Positions 16,466 to 21,474 of a DNA stretch of 46,016 bases are shown piece after piece (position 1 is the first letter of the stretch; each line of letters starts with the position of its first letter). The translations under genes were made by a program, and so were the position numbers. The stretch is from Acidobacteriaceae bacterium (GTDB lineage: Bacteria; Acidobacteriota; Terriglobia; Terriglobales; Acidobacteriaceae): positions 34,524 to 80,539 of the forward strand of contig PKUV01000155.1 of NCBI GenBank assembly GCA_003131315.1, given 5' to 3'. The notes under the pieces are model-generated. The model was not told the DNA's origin. It saw nothing but the letters and a program-made list of their open reading frames with translations, and did not search any database.

Positions 16466-16930
16466 TCAAATTGAATAGCATCTGACAGACTCCATGGGCA
16501 ATCCATGCCCGCCATAGTCTAGTCTTTTGAAACCACCGTAGAATCCCATTTCCGGTGCGATTCTACGCGGATCCAGGCTTGAGATGTCTCTGGCAGTAAT
16601 TTGGACAGCATCTGACGGCAAACGCCAACCTGTTTTTCCTGCTATCAAAGTCAACTCAATAAAATCAGCGACGTAGGCCGTCCAAGACGCTCCATCCACG
16701 GCTAATTCATACCGCATGACGTGGTCGAATTGTGCTCCGGTGGACTCATCGACAGACTTTGAACGGTGCACAGAGATATCAATGCCGAGTTCAGCCATAA
16801 CTTTGACGGGCCGCGTGCCGGCACTGAACACTTCGAACCGGTCACCGGCCTGATCGCGTAGTCGTCCTTCGGCCATTTGACTGCGAGCCGAATTCCCGGT
16901 GCACAGGATCAGGACGCGCTGCTTGCTCAT
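16466..16930 (-). CDS. Chimeric or decayed arsenate reductase: ArsC N-terminus joined to an unrelated tail
   Basis: A 154-residue protein. Residues 1-71 are a low-molecular-weight-phosphatase-type ArsC with the intact P-loop [13 protein letters not shown] (Cys10). Compared with the intact ArsC at 21040, about seven residues are missing after SAGTRP. After QFDHVM, where the family continues with two redox cysteines and the DP loop, the sequence changes to an 83-residue tail I do not recognise (starting [11 protein letters not shown]). The distal catalytic cysteines and aspartate are therefore lost, and arsenate reduction by the usual thioredoxin mechanism is unlikely. The ATG is embedded in the acr3 stop (TAATG), which fixes the start and implies coupling. 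It is either a real fusion or a remnant. Confidence 0.75.
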
Positions 16931-18030
16931 TACGTCCTCTTTCCGTACGGATCGCAAATCGCGACTAAAGGTTGTCCGCTCACTGTCTCTCCGAAATACC
17001 GCCGCTGAAAGTACAACGCGACATTCACCAGAGCGATCATGACTGGTACCTCGACCAAGGGCCCGATGACCGCCGCGAACGCGGCCCCGGAGTTGATTCC
17101 GAACACCGCCACCGCGACTGCGATCGCCAATTCGAAGTTGTTCGAGGCCGCGGTGAACGCGAGTGTCGTGGTCTTCGAGTAGTCGGCGCCGAGCTTCTTC
17201 CCCATGTAGAATGACACCAAGAACATCACGACGAAATAGATCAGAAGCGGGACGGCGATTCGGACTACATCAAGCGGCAACCGAACGATGTATCCGCCCT
17301 TCAGCGAGAACATGATCACAATCGTGAACAACAGAGCAATTAGAGTCAGCGGGCTGACGCGCGGAACGAAGTTGTGGTCGTACCACTCGCGGCCCTTCGT
17401 GCGAACCAGCACGGTACGAGTCAGAAAGCCAGCGAGGAACGGAATCCCGAGGTAGATGAAAACGCTCTTCGCGATTTCACCTATAGAGACGTTGACGACC
17501 ACGCTATGCAGGCCGAGTTTAGCGGGCAGGACGGTGATGAATACCCATGCGTAGACCGAGTACAAGAACACCTGGAACAAGGAATTGAAAGCCACCAGAC
17601 CCGCCGCATACTCCGTATCGCCTTTGGCGAGTTCGTTCCACACGATCACCATCGCGATGCACCGAGCGAGGCCGATCAGGATCAGCCCGGCCATGTACTC
17701 GGGGTATCCGCGGAGAAATATGATCGCCAGCACGAACATGAGAACCGGACCTACCACCCAGTTTTGCACCAGCGAAAGAGCAAGCACGCGTTTGTTGCGA
17801 AAGACTTCGTGCAACTCCTCATACCGCACCTTCGTGAACGGCGGGTACATCATCACGATCAGTCCGACCGCGATCGGGATCGACGTAGTACCCACACTGA
17901 ATTTGTTAAGGAAGGGAACGATGCCGGGATACAGCCAACCAGCAATGACGCCGACGGCCATTGCGGCGAAGATCCAAGCGGTGAGATAACGATCCAGAAA
18001 GCTCAGTCGAGAAGAGACTCTGTCTGCCAT
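16930..18030 (-). CDS. acr3: Arsenite efflux permease Acr3
   Basis: A 366-residue inner-membrane protein of the ACR3 (bile/arsenite/riboflavin transporter) family with about ten helices. It extrudes As(III). The key segment [21 protein letters not shown] carries the conserved membrane Cys124, essential in studied Acr3 proteins. The N-terminal [11 protein letters not shown] and [14 protein letters not shown] are also family signatures. It starts 4 bases after the arsR stop and overlaps the ArsC-like gene. Expression is presumably under ArsR control. Confidence 0.96.
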
Positions 18031-18034
18031 GTCC

Positions 18035-18427
18035 TTACACCCTCGCGGAAGTGGTTACCTTCGGAAGCGCCGAGTACGGACGCCATTCGTTTCGCGTGCA
18101 CGAGCCCGCCTGGATTGCTTCTTTCAGCTTGCGCGTGTCGTCCTGCAGAAGTTCCTCCCCCTTGAAGACCTGCGGAAGGAAGTCAAAGAAACGCCTTGTC
18201 GTACCGGACTTGGCTTCCGCAAGCCGGTAAAAGATGCGAGGCCCGTCGCGGCGGTCCAACACTAGCCCGCAATTTTTCAGATACGTTAAGTGTCGCGACA
18301 CATTCGGCTGCGACATCTCCAGAACGTATTGGATATCGCATCCGCATAGCTCGCCGTGCAACAGCAGGTTGAGCATCCGTACCCGGGTTACGTCGGATAG
18401 ACCTTTGAAATACTGTTCGAGCTTCAT
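18035..18427 (-). CDS. arsR: ArsR/SmtB family arsenic-responsive repressor
   Basis: A 130-residue winged-helix DNA-binding protein. ELCGCD at 26-31 gives the Cys28/Cys30 pair of the alpha-3 type As(III) site. [19 protein letters not shown] (about 38-56) is the recognition helix region, followed by the wing [12 protein letters not shown]. The C-terminal extension has a further Cys (about 109) that could serve as a third ligand. It is directly upstream of acr3. An 18-bp inverted repeat 56 bases upstream of the start is a candidate operator. Confidence 0.94.
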
Positions 18428-18570: not shown

Positions 18571-18828
18571 TCAGCGGCCCGTCGTAGCTGACGCCGCCGC
18601 AAGCCATCCCCTGACCTCGTCTTCCTTGGGAATGCGGCCAGAGACTTTAACCAACCCATTTACTGTCACCGCTGGGGTGAGCAGCACGCCTGCCTTTGCC
18701 ATACCAATCGGATCGTTTACCTTCTGTACCTCAGCCGTGACGCCCATCTGCTCTACTGCGTGCCGCACCACTTTTTCCGTTTCCACGCACCTCGAACAAC
18801 CAGGACCATAAACAATAATGTTCAGCAT
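18571..18828 (-). CDS. Small thioredoxin-fold redox protein (CxxC)
   Basis: An 85-residue glutaredoxin/thioredoxin-like protein of the small redox-active disulfide protein type. It has an N-terminal beta strand and active site GPGCSRC (Cys11, Cys14) and the cis-proline segment LLTPAVTVNG. It is cytosolic. I chose the ATG at 18828, preceded by AGAGAGGAAACG; the longer frame to 18894 overlaps the OsmC gene. Such proteins often occur in arsenic operons as possible electron donors for arsenate reductase. It lies 13 bases after the OsmC gene, last in the five-gene block that precedes arsR. Confidence 0.9.
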   Translation of the reverse strand: MLNIIVYGPGCSRCVETEKVVRHAVEQMGVTAEVQKVNDPIGMAKAGVLLTPAVTVNGLVKVSGRIPKEDEVRGWLAAASATTGR

Positions 18829-18841
18829 CGTTTCCTCTCTC

Positions 18842-19330
18842 TCAGCGATCCAAAACCGGAAGGTGGTCCTCCGCGTCTTTCTCGCTAATAACAATTTCGG
18901 GCTCTACGATGATTTCGGACTTCACCGAATTTGCGACCAGGCTGTACTTCTGAGCAGCTTGCAGCGCACGTTGCACCCTAGTTTCTATTACCGCCCTTGA
19001 CTCCTCCCCGCAAGCAACCCGAATTACCGGATGAAAGCACAACCGCGTGAAGAGTTCAGTCCGGTCAAGCTCGATCACCTTGGTACCTTCGGTGCGGCAT
19101 TCATAGGACAACAAGTTGAGATGGAACCGCTCCGCCGCCCAGATGAACATCAGCATCACACAGGTGTTCGCCGCCGCCACAAATGCGTCTTCCGGGGTGA
19201 ATACGCCCGCGTGCCCCTGTGCATCCGGAGGCGCCGAGAACTTCATCTCGGGACCGTTCCCCAACGTCAGGTGTCCCCAGTGTTCACCTGTCCACCGTAC
19301 CGTGGTGTGGTATGTGGCAGTTCGGCTCAT
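18842..19330 (-). CDS. OsmC/Ohr family protein lacking the second cysteine
   Basis: A 162-residue OsmC-family protein (peroxide or persulfide handling). AFVAAANTCVMLMF contains Cys57, at the position of the family's peroxidatic cysteine. The position where the second cysteine is expected reads AQKYSLVANSVKSEI, with Ser in place of Cys, so the usual disulfide cycle may be impossible without a partner thiol. The start at 19330 has AAGGAGTGACG upstream. The open frame continues upstream to 19573 but only as a shadow of the preceding gene. It sits between a DGC protein and the CxxC thioredoxin-like protein, which could be its reductant (inference). Confidence 0.88.
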   Translation of the reverse strand: MSRTATYHTTVRWTGEHWGHLTLGNGPEMKFSAPPDAQGHAGVFTPEDAFVAAANTCVMLMFIWAAERFHLNLLSYECRTEGTKVIELDRTELFTRLCFHPVIRVACGEESRAVIETRVQRALQAAQKYSLVANSVKSEIIVEPEIVISEKDAEDHLPVLDR

Positions 19331-19332
19331 CG

Positions 19333-20046
19333 TCACTCCTTGTGGGCACAGAAAGCTGAGTACTCGCGGAGGATGGCCTCGCGGTAATTCGCCTCGGCTT
19401 CCGGTGGAACGTAGTTGTAAATCTTCACGGTTCGGAGCAGATCTTCCCCGGCATCCTCTGGCGCACGTCCCCTCTCTCGGAAGTGCTGAAAGATCAGTGG
19501 CAGCGCCAGCAGTTCGACGGTTCCTCCAGCAATCAACACCTTGTTGAGCGGGACACCAGATCCGCAGGAGCACGTACCTACATTGGCTGCGACCAGCTGC
19601 GGTTCAGCAGATTCCGTGACTCGTGCCCCGCTGGGCCGTTTCCCTACAAATTGATCGACCAGTTCTGCCAGTCGCTGAGCCGTCACGTCAACGGCCTGCT
19701 TGCCGGCCTCATTTAGGCAGCGCCTTCCCTCGATCCTGCCTAAGTGCTGCTCTGTCGCAACTTCGTTGACTACGATGCTCGCTACCGGCTTGCCCGAGTA
19801 CATTTCGGTACCGCGCGCGGCACAGCGAAGCTCGCACCCGTCGACCGTGATCGTCGGATGAAAGCGAGCGAACGCCCGGTCCCCTTCGCCGCCCGCAAGA
19901 AATAGCGGTAAGCAGATGGTGACGGTGTTCCCAGGCCGCAACTCGTGCAACACCTTAAGAGCTGCCAATCTAGCGACTGTGCCCTCGGCCAATTCCTCGC
20001 CCGAGCAGGCGACGATCCCGGCTTTTCTCTCGGGCAGATCAGGCAT
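19333..20046 (-). CDS. DGC-domain metal-binding protein with an extra Cys-containing C-terminal domain
   Basis: A 237-residue cytosolic protein. The N-terminal ~100 residues resemble the DGC putative zinc-binding domain: IVACSGEE (Cys14) and ITVDGCELRCAA (Cys71, Cys75). A linker leads to GTCSCGSG (Cys159, Cys161) and a C-terminal helical domain ending YNYVPPEAEANYREAILREY, which I do not recognise. The ATG at 20046 overlaps the preceding DGC gene by 8 bases. Pairing with a shorter DGC paralogue in one operon suggests a complex or sequential metal/sulfur handling. No activity is established. Confidence 0.83.
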   Translation of the reverse strand: MPDLPERKAGIVACSGEELAEGTVARLAALKVLHELRPGNTVTICLPLFLAGGEGDRAFARFHPTITVDGCELRCAARGTEMYSGKPVASIVVNEVATEQHLGRIEGRRCLNEAGKQAVDVTAQRLAELVDQFVGKRPSGARVTESAEPQLVAANVGTCSCGSGVPLNKVLIAGGTVELLALPLIFQHFRERGRAPEDAGEDLLRTVKIYNYVPPEAEANYREAILREYSAFCAHKE

Positions 20047-20452
20047 GGGTGCCTCCTTCTGCAATCTCGTCAAGATCCGCGGCAATCTCCTCCGCCAGTT
20101 TGCGGGCGAGCTGCCTGCCTTCTGAGTTGAGCTCGGCGATGCCCTCGGGTTTGAGTCCCTTGTGGCGGCGGAACACCTCGAATACGGCGACCTCCCGCAA
20201 GACCGTGCCTCCGCTATGTCTCACCAGCTTGGCGGCGCACATCTGCTTGCAGCCGTCAATGGTCACCGCGGGGCTGGTGCGGACCCGCTCGCGAGCCTGT
20301 TCTTCACCTAGCACAAGCTTCGAGAGCGCCACCAACTGCGTTTGGTCAGGGCGCAACTCTTCGCAAAGCTCATAAGCCGCTTCGCGGCTTACCGACCCAA
20401 GCGCCTTGCCTATTCCGCTGCACGGTATAACTACCACTCGGTTTTGGTTCAT
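20039..20452 (-). CDS. DGC-domain putative zinc-binding protein
   Basis: A 137-residue cytosolic protein with the DGC layout: VVVIPCSGIGKALGSVSREA (Cys11), then AVTIDGCKQMCAAK (Cys68, Cys72), and a helical C-terminus. The three cysteines are where the family is thought to bind metal. The ATG overlaps the GcvH-like stop (ATGA), so translation is coupled. It is a paralogue of the N-terminal domain of the next gene. Confidence 0.87.
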   Translation of the reverse strand: MNQNRVVVIPCSGIGKALGSVSREAAYELCEELRPDQTQLVALSKLVLGEEQARERVRTSPAVTIDGCKQMCAAKLVRHSGGTVLREVAVFEVFRRHKGLKPEGIAELNSEGRQLARKLAEEIAADLDEIAEGGTHA

Positions 20453-20907
20453 GACTTCAGCTCCTGCTCCGCCTGGGATTGCATCACGGCCATGTATGCC
20501 TGCGGGTCGAGCAGCTTCGCACGATCGGCTTCCCAGTTCGCAGTCTCAATCTCTGCCAGCCATCCCTTTTCATACGGGTCTTCATTAACAATTTCAGGCT
20601 TCAAGGTGAGGGCGGCGTTGACCTCGACAATAGTTCCGCCCACAGGAGAGGAAAGACCGATGGTCACCTTCATCGTCTCGATTTCCGCGAACTCATCGCC
20701 CGCCTTGAGCGTGGTTTTCGGGGGCTTAACAGAGGCGAAGGCAACGTCGCCATTGTGCTGCTGCATGAAATCCGTGACGCCGACTCGGACCCGCCTGGTT
20801 CCTTGCGGCTGGACCCAGACCACCCATACTCCATCCGACGTATAGAAGCGATCTGTGGCTACCAGGAAGGTGAACTTGTCAACGGTGGTGCGGAGAAAGT
20901 CAGGCAT
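20449..20907 (-). CDS. GcvH-like lipoyl-carrier protein
   Basis: A 152-residue protein of the glycine-cleavage H family. It has the H-protein opening (FLVATDRFYT, VRVGVTDFMQQHNGDVAF) and a hammerhead around Lys80 in AEIETMKVTIGLSSPVGG, then the NEDPYEKGWLAEIE ending typical of H proteins. The usual lipoylation context ESVK is here ETMK, closer to biotinyl EAMK. No gcvT, gcvP or lipoate ligase gene is near, so a role in glycine cleavage is doubtful. GcvH-like carriers without glycine cleavage are known in sulfur oxidation (LbpA with sHdr). It is first in the operon and likely served by the promoter at about 20940. Confidence 0.88.
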   Translation of the reverse strand: MPDFLRTTVDKFTFLVATDRFYTSDGVWVVWVQPQGTRRVRVGVTDFMQQHNGDVAFASVKPPKTTLKAGDEFAEIETMKVTIGLSSPVGGTIVEVNAALTLKPEIVNEDPYEKGWLAEIETANWEADRAKLLDPQAYMAVMQSQAEQELKS

Positions 20908-20952
20908 GGCTCCTTCTTCTTGATCGATACCACACTGTTACTCTTCTATTCG

Positions 20953-20972
20953 CATACATGTATACCAGTATG
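20953..20972. promoter_or_regulatory. Candidate operator between the divergent gcvH-like and arsC genes
   Basis: CATAC-N10-GTATG inverted repeat containing the perfect 10-bp palindrome ATACATGTAT (20954-20963). It lies 45 bases from the gcvH-like start and 67 from arsC. Its AT-rich TATAC/CATGTAT content recalls the site upstream of arsR, so ArsR could control both directions. Position and symmetry are the only evidence. Confidence 0.45.
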
Positions 20973-21039: not shown

Positions 21040-21474
21040 ATGACAATCAAAGTACTGTTTCTCTGTACCGGAAACTCGGCTCGGAGCCAGATGGCAGAGG
21101 GATATCTGCGGCACGTGGCAGGAGACCAGTTTGACGCTCTAAGCGCTGGGATTGAGCCGAAGGGACTGAACCCCTTTGCGGTCGAGGCGATGCGGGAAAT
21201 CGGCATCGACATCTCTCGCCAGTCCAAAGATGTCGTCTCGCTTCTCGGTCAGCATATTCCGTACGTCGTCACAGTCTGCGACAACGCAAGAGAGCGCTGC
21301 CCCATCTTTCCCCGGACCTACAAGTTCCTGCATTGGAGCTTCGACGATCCTGCCGCTGCGCAGGGCTCGCACGAGGAGAAGCTGGCTGTCTTCCGCCGCG
21401 TCCACGATGAGATCGCACACAGAATCGACAAGGAATTGGTGTCTCTACACGAGGCGCAACGCTCCGGGACATGA
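21040..21474 (+). CDS. arsC: Thioredoxin-coupled arsenate reductase ArsC
   Basis: A 144-residue cytosolic enzyme of the low-molecular-weight phosphatase fold reducing As(V) to As(III). P-loop [13 protein letters not shown] (Cys9), distal redox pair Cys80 and Cys87 (VTVCDNARERC) and the acid loop HWSFDDPA are all present, so it appears fully active. The ATG at 21040 is preferred over 21010 because the family begins at [13 protein letters not shown]. It is transcribed away from the gcvH-to-acr3 operon across a palindromic intergenic site, and its stop overlaps the next gene (ATGA). Confidence 0.95.
   Translation: MTIKVLFLCTGNSARSQMAEGYLRHVAGDQFDALSAGIEPKGLNPFAVEAMREIGIDISRQSKDVVSLLGQHIPYVVTVCDNARERCPIFPRTYKFLHWSFDDPAAAQGSHEEKLAVFRRVHDEIAHRIDKELVSLHEAQRSGT

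Follow-up and report, generated by a model that had tools for sequence, protein, structure and literature searches.

A GcvH-like carrier and paired DGC proteins in a gene module associated with arsenic-resistance genes in bacteria and Asgard archaea

The described systems closest to the one reported here include GcvH, the H protein of glycine cleavage, the GcvH-L of the SirTM operon, and the ArsEFG set that confers resistance to roxarsone and nitarsone. They also include LbpA of the sHdr pathway, a GcvH-like carrier that is essential for sulfur oxidation in Hyphomicrobium, as stated in an excerpt of PMC6067878, and the Ohr/OsmC peroxidases, of which the C. glutamicum Ohr draws its electrons mainly from lipoylated proteins, according to PMC4486171. 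The present work concerns a block of five genes at positions 18571–20907 of a 46,016-nucleotide stretch of DNA from an Acidobacteriaceae bacterium (contig PKUV01000155.1, here C19), the whole of which is called the window below. A sequence-only reading had taken these genes, which encode a GcvH-like lipoyl carrier, two DGC proteins, an OsmC protein and a CxxC thioredoxin, for a candidate module joined to arsR and acr3, and had named the failure of the five to occur together elsewhere as one observation that would speak against it. That failure was not seen when recurrence was checked: the core of the set is spread over several phyla of bacteria as well as Asgard archaea, and arsenic-resistance (ars) genes often accompany it. 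The chemistry proposed in that reading, in which the lipoyl dithiol would serve as sensor, carrier or sacrificial target in the handling of thiols, persulfides or As(III), keeps the status of a hypothesis. We read it as a conserved, arsenic-linked redox and carrier module in which a lipoyl-dithiol relay would act on arsenic, a reading to which we give not quite an even chance of being right.

The module and its recurrence

The first gene of the block encodes the carrier, here called GcvHL (20449–20907; 152 amino acids), which matches the Pfam family GCV_H with 101.6 bits against a cut-off of 22.2. It is followed by DGC1 (20039–20452; 137 amino acids; PF08859, 53.2 bits, cut-off 27), which has a Rossmann-like model and the invariant cysteines C11, C68 and C72, and by DGC2 (19333–20046; 237 amino acids; PF08859, 55.1 bits, cut-off 27), in which a DGC domain is joined to a C-terminal CSCGSG domain. 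Next come an OsmC-family protein (18842–19330; 162 amino acids; PF02566, 37.2 bits, cut-off 27.5) and a thioredoxin-like protein of the MTH895/ArsE family with a CxxC motif, called Trx below (18571–18828; 85 amino acids; NCBIfam TIGR00412, 78.1 bits, cut-off 62). All five genes stand on the minus strand where the earlier reading had placed them, with a profile match above the Pfam or NCBIfam cut-off for each family. GcvHL and DGC1 overlap by 4 bases and DGC1 and DGC2 by 8, and the gaps between DGC2 and OsmC and between OsmC and Trx measure 2 and 13 bases, a close packing that suggests a single GcvHL–DGC1–DGC2–OsmC–Trx operon.

A scan with GcvHL of a genome collection of 84,980 species returned 116 relatives, and the analysis was confined to the best 80 of them. 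Among these are 18 full-length or nearly full-length relatives with 49–72% identity (loci L006–L022 and L032; L153 denotes the window's own region, and the other L numbers are loci in other genomes or genome parts). They carry the labels Acidobacteria/Terriglobia, Deltaproteobacteria, Myxococcales, Verrucomicrobia, Chloroflexi/Anaerolineae and Aminicenantes, and a further relative in Thorarchaeota (L043) is incomplete at a contig start. The remaining 61 fall outside the GcvHL group and were used as control GcvH-family loci, which may not all serve glycine cleavage. The order GcvHL–DGC1–DGC2–OsmC is intact in 16 of the 18 close relatives, and the other two (L011 and L032) run into contig ends.

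A second search used DGC2 only and is thus independent of GcvHL as a starting point; L011, whose best match was DGC1 at a contig end, was excluded from the profile. The E limits were set at 1e-10 for Acidobacteriota, 1e-25 for Verrucomicrobiota and Chloroflexota and 1e-20 for Asgard archaea, which leaves weaker DGC relatives with other neighbours outside the scope of the counts, and the names of the last three groups were taken from the loci at the centre of each search (L013, L018 and L043). DGC2 was found in 13 of 297 genomes of Acidobacteriota, representing 11 of 167 genera and including the host genome, and in 4 of 288 Verrucomicrobiota, 3 of 301 Chloroflexota and 32 of 148 Asgard genomes, each of these three sets including one genome already known. 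GcvHL shares a block with DGC1–DGC2 in 49 of the 53 regions with a DGC2 match, among which L153 is not counted; it is directly adjacent in 48 of them and two genes off in L146. Three of the misses (L140, L173 and L180) have a contig end less than 0.5 kb from DGC1, and the fourth, L188, is a true exception. This locus holds a weak paralogous DGC1–DGC2 pair (63 bits) without GcvHL; its Asgard genome carries the complete module elsewhere (L168), and at L188 the DGC pair may have another use. Within the window's own family, 2 other positives for DGC2 stand against 20 negatives among the genomes listed, a patchy distribution that suggests gene transfer of the module; the PLSDB plasmid collection gave no plasmid match to DGC2 at E 1e-5.

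The five genes are not equally constant. OsmC is found in 33 of 36 bacterial loci and in 1 of 35 Asgard loci (here and below, L153 and L188 stand outside these counts, and L139 and L140 come from the same genome, on separate contigs), and the CxxC Trx in 28 of the 36 bacterial loci, at varying positions. The five-gene unit that had been proposed thus stands for GcvHL, DGC1 and DGC2, the constant core, and gives way for the other two, OsmC being a bacterial extension and Trx a common but mobile companion. Most bacteria have the order GcvHL–DGC1–DGC2–OsmC, and L146 has GcvHL–OsmC–Trx–DGC1–DGC2. Twenty Asgard loci, together with L144, which belongs to the same family of Acidobacteriota as the window, have the order HdrA-like–ferredoxin–GcvHL–DGC1–DGC2, and Trx–DGC1–DGC2–GcvHL is seen in other Asgards. 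Because the gene orders vary in this way, the functional link between the genes is the stronger. Carrier and DGC domain are also joined within one protein, an N-terminal DGC domain being fused to the GcvHL frame in 22 of the 33 carrier-bearing Asgard loci and in L144, with DGC matches at 0 of the 61 control loci. In one bacterial locus OsmC is directly followed by an additional DGC-domain protein (L012:10055–10645; 95.4 bits), in which a TAT signal is weakly matched.

The carrier has a distinct place within its family. The lysine at the lipoyl position (K80, in the motif ETMK) and E77 are kept in 69 of 69 homologues. GcvHL retains the NxDPYxxGW core of the GCV_H family, and its scores lie below both NCBIfam GcvH equivalog/subfamily cut-offs (85.8 versus 115.85 and 108.4 versus 117 bits). 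In an unrooted tree of 134 carriers, in which several rows are long, 69 module carriers stand on one side of a branch (98/89) and 63 other GcvH proteins on the opposite side. Extra GcvH copies near two Asgard modules (L171 and L172) are placed outside the module group.

The only two DGC proteins of the host genome (6.0 Mb in 194 contigs) are those of the window locus, and its GcvH-family proteins number three, namely GcvHL, one on contig C155 and one on contig C141. The copy on C155 has the usual ESVKA motif and adjoins GcvP, so that GcvHL, judged by gene placement, is probably a second, dedicated carrier next to a canonical GcvH; for the same reason GcvHL was rejected as the glycine-cleavage H protein of this genome. 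The protein on C141 (L005, C141:93767–94084) belongs to a longer open frame of 226 amino acids and has no lysine at the lipoyl position. LipA and the sole LipB/LplA-type match of the genome are both on contig C6. The earlier reading had also noted that neither a glycine-cleavage enzyme nor a lipoate ligase is present nearby, and indeed no P protein and no lipoate ligase or transferase is found on C19 (GcvT was not searched for). Among the genomes of the relatives, GcvP was found in 18 of 19.

Association with arsenic-resistance genes

In the window the block is followed by arsR, which encodes an ArsR/SmtB repressor with an ELCGCD motif (18035–18427, minus strand; NF033788, 84.9 bits, cut-off 55), and by the arsenite efflux transporter gene acr3 (16930–18030, minus strand; TIGR00832, 470.8 bits, cut-off 282.8). 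The two had been said to follow the block directly; this is apt for acr3, which comes 4 bases after arsR, and slightly loose for arsR, which lies 143 bases from Trx. The linkage recurs elsewhere, as counted within 6.5 kb of each locus. Genes for Acr3, ArsC, ArsA, ArsF or ArsG are near 28 of the 36 bacterial loci and an ArsR-family gene is near 28, with either kind near 32; the corresponding figures for the 35 Asgard loci are 15, 21 and 24. At the 61 control loci, each searched over 11.6 kb on average, Acr3, ArsR, ArsC, Trx, OsmC and DGC were found at none, and there was one weak ArsA-like match. ArsF and/or ArsG are near five of the 36 bacterial loci (L019, L139, L140, L143 and L147). In L019 the block continues from OsmC to an ArsE-like Trx, ArsF (105.5 bits, cut-off 60) and ArsG (292.4 bits, cut-off 200); both ArsF and ArsG are absent from the gene order of the window's own region.

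Upstream of the block stands a divergent arsC of the thioredoxin-type arsenate reductase family (21040–21474, plus strand; PF01451, 56.5 bits, cut-off 23.2; TIGR02691, 155.6 bits, below the cut-off of 174.3). Between this arsC and the GcvHL operon lies a palindrome, ATTCGCATACATGTATAC... (20948–20971), which is a candidate ArsR operator. The corresponding gap in L006, a close relative, agrees with it at 18 of 18 bases and the arsR–arsC gap of L135 at 15 of 18; the best of 60 shuffles reaches 14 in each case. The palindrome core, ATACATGTATAC, has three overlapping matches with at most two mismatches, all of them at the palindrome; the chance mean is 0.73 and three matches were reached in 7 of 100 shuffles, so that within the window alone the palindrome is only mildly unexpected. 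The likeness of the window's Trx–arsR gap to the palindrome lacks significance over 18 bases, where 13 of 60 shuffles did equally well (1 of 60 over 24 bases), and the Trx–arsR gap of L006 has no such site. A palindrome common to two relatives fits with, and suggests, control of the operon by ArsR.

Such control would also suit an explanation in which dihydrolipoyl-GcvHL serves as a decoy that soaks up As(III) and spares the pyruvate and 2-oxoglutarate dehydrogenases, or as a sensor that signals arsenic. An excerpt of PMC6205960 states that arsenite binds vicinal thiols strongly, and the same source lists lipoic acid among the thiols that arsenite binds weakly. A decoy would have no need for two conserved DGC proteins, a DGC–lipoyl fusion or dedicated reductases, and we consider it decidedly improbable.

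Two further observations belong to the arsenic genes around the module. A second arsC-like frame lies downstream of acr3 (16466–16930, minus strand) and has an LMWPc/ArsC match over its first half only; the remaining half is unmatched, so the frame may be broken, and its counterpart at the corresponding place in L006 has a longer match. Near the module of a Verrucomicrobium (L013:10920–12215) there is a protein that combines thioredoxin, weak NosL-like and MerB-like (alkylmercury lyase) regions.

Cysteine sites, electron donors and a possible relay

The DGC cysteines hardly vary. C11, C68 and C72 of DGC1 are kept in 72 of the 72 rows with a letter, with one gap, and their counterparts in DGC2, C14, C71 and C75, in 71 of 71; a further cysteine of DGC2, C45, is kept in 70 of 71. 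The predicted model of DGC1 is a Rossmann-like fold (pLDDT 92.1, pTM 0.87), and that of DGC2 has a pLDDT of 80.7 and a pTM of 0.55. In the secondary structure of the DGC1 model, C11 and C68 each come after one of two strands and a helix begins at C72, which makes a common site of the three cysteines plausible. Structure searches with the two models gave generic alpha/beta matches only (best Foldseek E 0.012 and 0.0043; best VIA Z 8.2, a value close to what unrelated models usually reach at best), and a sequence search of the PDB with the DGC1 profile had a best E of 0.61.

In OsmC, the peroxidatic-position cysteine C57 and an extra cysteine, C78, are kept in 34 of 34 rows. One rival reading is a lipoyl-dependent peroxidase, in which electrons would pass from GcvHL to OsmC and remove the peroxides of arsenic stress, much as with Ohr. 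Support for this comes from the electron supply of the C. glutamicum Ohr cited above, from a paper title, cited in an excerpt of PMC10332631, that connects the removal of peroxides in Trichomonas with OsmC and an incomplete glycine decarboxylase complex, and from the dihydrolipoyl dehydrogenase neighbours described below, and an AhpD-domain protein in L018 and a CMD-family protein in L008 come after OsmC. The position of the usual resolving cysteine, located by alignment to 2onf, is Ser130, however, and is serine in 33 of the 33 rows that have a residue there, one further row being gapped; in Ohr, a change of cysteine to serine at either site drastically lowers activity (PMC4486171). The invariant Cys78 could stand in for it. 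The core also persists without OsmC in 34 of the 35 Asgard loci, so we consider this explanation improbable, and a classical Ohr peroxidase as the core function was not accepted on account of the missing resolving cysteine.

Possible electron donors for the lipoyl arm are found among the neighbours. A dihydrolipoyl dehydrogenase (TIGR01350, 489–497 bits, cut-off 408.8) is encoded directly upstream of GcvHL in L010, L012 and L014, and L013 has a further match at the same place. In the 20 Asgard loci and L144, a small HdrA-N-like protein is encoded upstream, followed by ferredoxin (the count uses a 100-bit limit and leaves out L009, which is on the opposite strand and enters the neighbour tally as the second bacterial match). 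Its matches in the PDB are weak, two HdrA chains at E 0.0089 and 0.33 and DsrF third at 0.47. This Asgard version speaks for the handling of sulfane sulfur in the manner of LbpA and sHdr, the lipoyl arm carrying sulfur from thioarsenate or from a persulfide pool damaged by arsenic, with the DGC and OsmC cysteines as relays; LbpA, as said, offers a precedent for a GcvH-like carrier in sulfur oxidation. The HdrA match is weak, and HdrB/HdrC, TusA, DsrE and rhodanese are unnamed among the neighbour proteins scanned, a selection of frames to which no dedicated models were applied. The ars linkage would also go unexplained unless the substrate contains arsenic. We therefore think this explanation unlikely.

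The arsenic relay could work as follows. GcvHL would be lipoylated by the ordinary LipB/LplA-type and LipA enzymes of the cell, and its lipoyl arm would be brought to the dithiol state by dihydrolipoyl dehydrogenase or, in one Asgard version, by ferredoxin and the HdrA-N-like protein instead, as the neighbours suggest. The dihydrolipoyl arm might then visit the cysteine clusters of DGC1 and DGC2 and, in many Asgards, the further DGC domain on the carrier itself. There it would take over, reduce or pass on arsenic that is complexed by thiols or present in a form unfit for export by Acr3, and As(III) would thereby be freed for efflux through Acr3. In bacteria, OsmC and the small ArsE-type thioredoxin may act as thiol partners, and in the host genome the operon would probably be induced through ArsR. 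Since ArsC and Acr3 handle inorganic arsenic by themselves, the module probably serves arsenic species beyond their reach, which may be thiol-bound, thiolated or organic. In its full form, as an undescribed arsenic detoxification of bacteria and Asgard archaea in which a dihydrolipoyl swinging arm shuttles arsenic, or reducing power for organic or sulfur-bound arsenic, between paired DGC cysteine sites and delivers As(III) to efflux, we offer this scheme tentatively and would sooner expect it to be wrong in part than right throughout.

Several observations weigh against an arsenic relay. ArsC and Acr3 are already enough for inorganic arsenic. A dihydrolipoyl dehydrogenase is also near 17 of the 61 control loci, so these neighbours speak for lipoylation and not for arsenic, and LipA, found in 17 of 19 genomes of relatives versus 12 of 14 control genomes, carries little weight. 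The DGC1 model has no specific match among solved structures, so a metal or arsenic site in it is putative. The arsenic linkage has its exceptions, too. Four bacterial loci are without ars or ArsR neighbours; in three of them a contig ends less than 2.3 kb away, and L016, which has 7 kb on both sides and no recognised ars neighbour, is a genuine exception. The link is weaker in the Asgards, where 20 of the 35 loci have no Acr3, ArsC, ArsA, ArsF or ArsG gene within the span counted, among them L159, L167, L168 and L179, which are not close to a contig end; an ArsR-family gene is present at L168 and L179. Loci such as L016 and several of the Asgards would suit a module that serves zinc, another metal or a thiol and that sits in ars islands since such islands gather stress genes, and DGC is a putative zinc-binding domain. 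Against this stands an ars linkage that is found repeatedly, under differing gene orders, in both bacteria and archaea and hardly at all at the 61 control loci, and we think this explanation, like the peroxidase, improbable.

Other proteins recur around the module. Radical SAM/SPASM proteins are found at 9 of 36 bacterial and 2 of 35 Asgard loci; some near GcvHL (L138:5899–7251, L141:5526–6896 and similar ones) resemble maturases of tungsten enzymes, with scores below the cut-off. Exported-type thioredoxins are found at 13 and DsbD-like proteins at 11 of the 36 bacterial loci. An uncharacterised protein of about 210 amino acids with a C-terminal FeS domain, PF04060 (L163:2515–3141 and relatives), is present at 8 Asgard and 3 Chloroflexi loci.

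Comparison with described systems

The titles and abstract beginnings covered by our literature search describe no GcvH–DGC–OsmC or GcvH–arsenic module, which is weak evidence of absence as subscription papers and preprints fall mostly outside that coverage; in most of the matches, 'DGC' stands for diguanylate cyclase. Membership in the predicted Tso selenoprotein set, which has an ArsR/SmtB-type regulator, TsoR, was considered. A GcvH-related NCBIfam model, NF045810, is numbered next to TsoX, NF045809 (an excerpt of the review PMC13188914, which gives the Tso names only); that NF045810 is a Tso member is a guess from this numbering. The window proteins score far below both cut-offs (39.7 versus 150 and 39.8 versus 115).

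There are several reasons why the module may be of wider interest. Lipoic acid is a known target of arsenic, and a dedicated lipoyl carrier in arsenic-resistance loci would turn this weakness into a tool. The literature found assigns no function to the DGC family, and the module offers one that can be tested; the DGC–lipoyl fusion is a direct physical link, open to testing with one protein. Its occurrence in Asgards suggests a system that is either old or widely exchanged.

GcvHL is like GcvH in its GCV_H domain, its lysine at the lipoyl position and its NxDPYxxGW core, and differs from it in its separate tree group, in scores that stay below the NCBIfam cut-offs and in not being encoded with GcvP (the search did not include GcvT). 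It shares with LbpA the nature of a GcvH-like carrier in a redox pathway other than glycine cleavage, and with the sHdr system the HdrA-N-like protein of the 20 Asgard loci and L144. It differs in its linkage to ars genes, the comparison being one of gene context and not of sequence; the genes hdrC1B1A-hyp-hdrC2B2 and sLpl/LipS are unnamed among the scanned neighbours, for which no dedicated models were used. The Ohr/OsmC lipoyl-dependent peroxidases have in common with the module an OsmC domain, a peroxidatic cysteine and a possible GcvH-like partner, whereas the OsmC of the module has serine for the resolving cysteine and most Asgard loci are without OsmC. PDB entry 5a35, which we take to be the GcvH-L of a SirTM operon, is likewise a GcvH-like carrier outside glycine cleavage. 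GcvHL scores better against an ordinary GcvH (1onl, 3.7e-21) than against 5a35 (2.8e-6), and sirtuin, macrodomain and lipoate ligase are unnamed among the scanned neighbours. With ArsEFG the window shares an ArsE-family Trx, and ArsF or ArsG accompany the module at the five bacterial loci given above; that set has, to our knowledge, no lipoyl carrier, DGC or OsmC protein. We know of no described arsenic or lipoyl system that the conserved core would match; its chemistry is what we infer. The module also suggests that lipoate has a role besides those in glycine cleavage, the 2-oxoacid dehydrogenases and sHdr.

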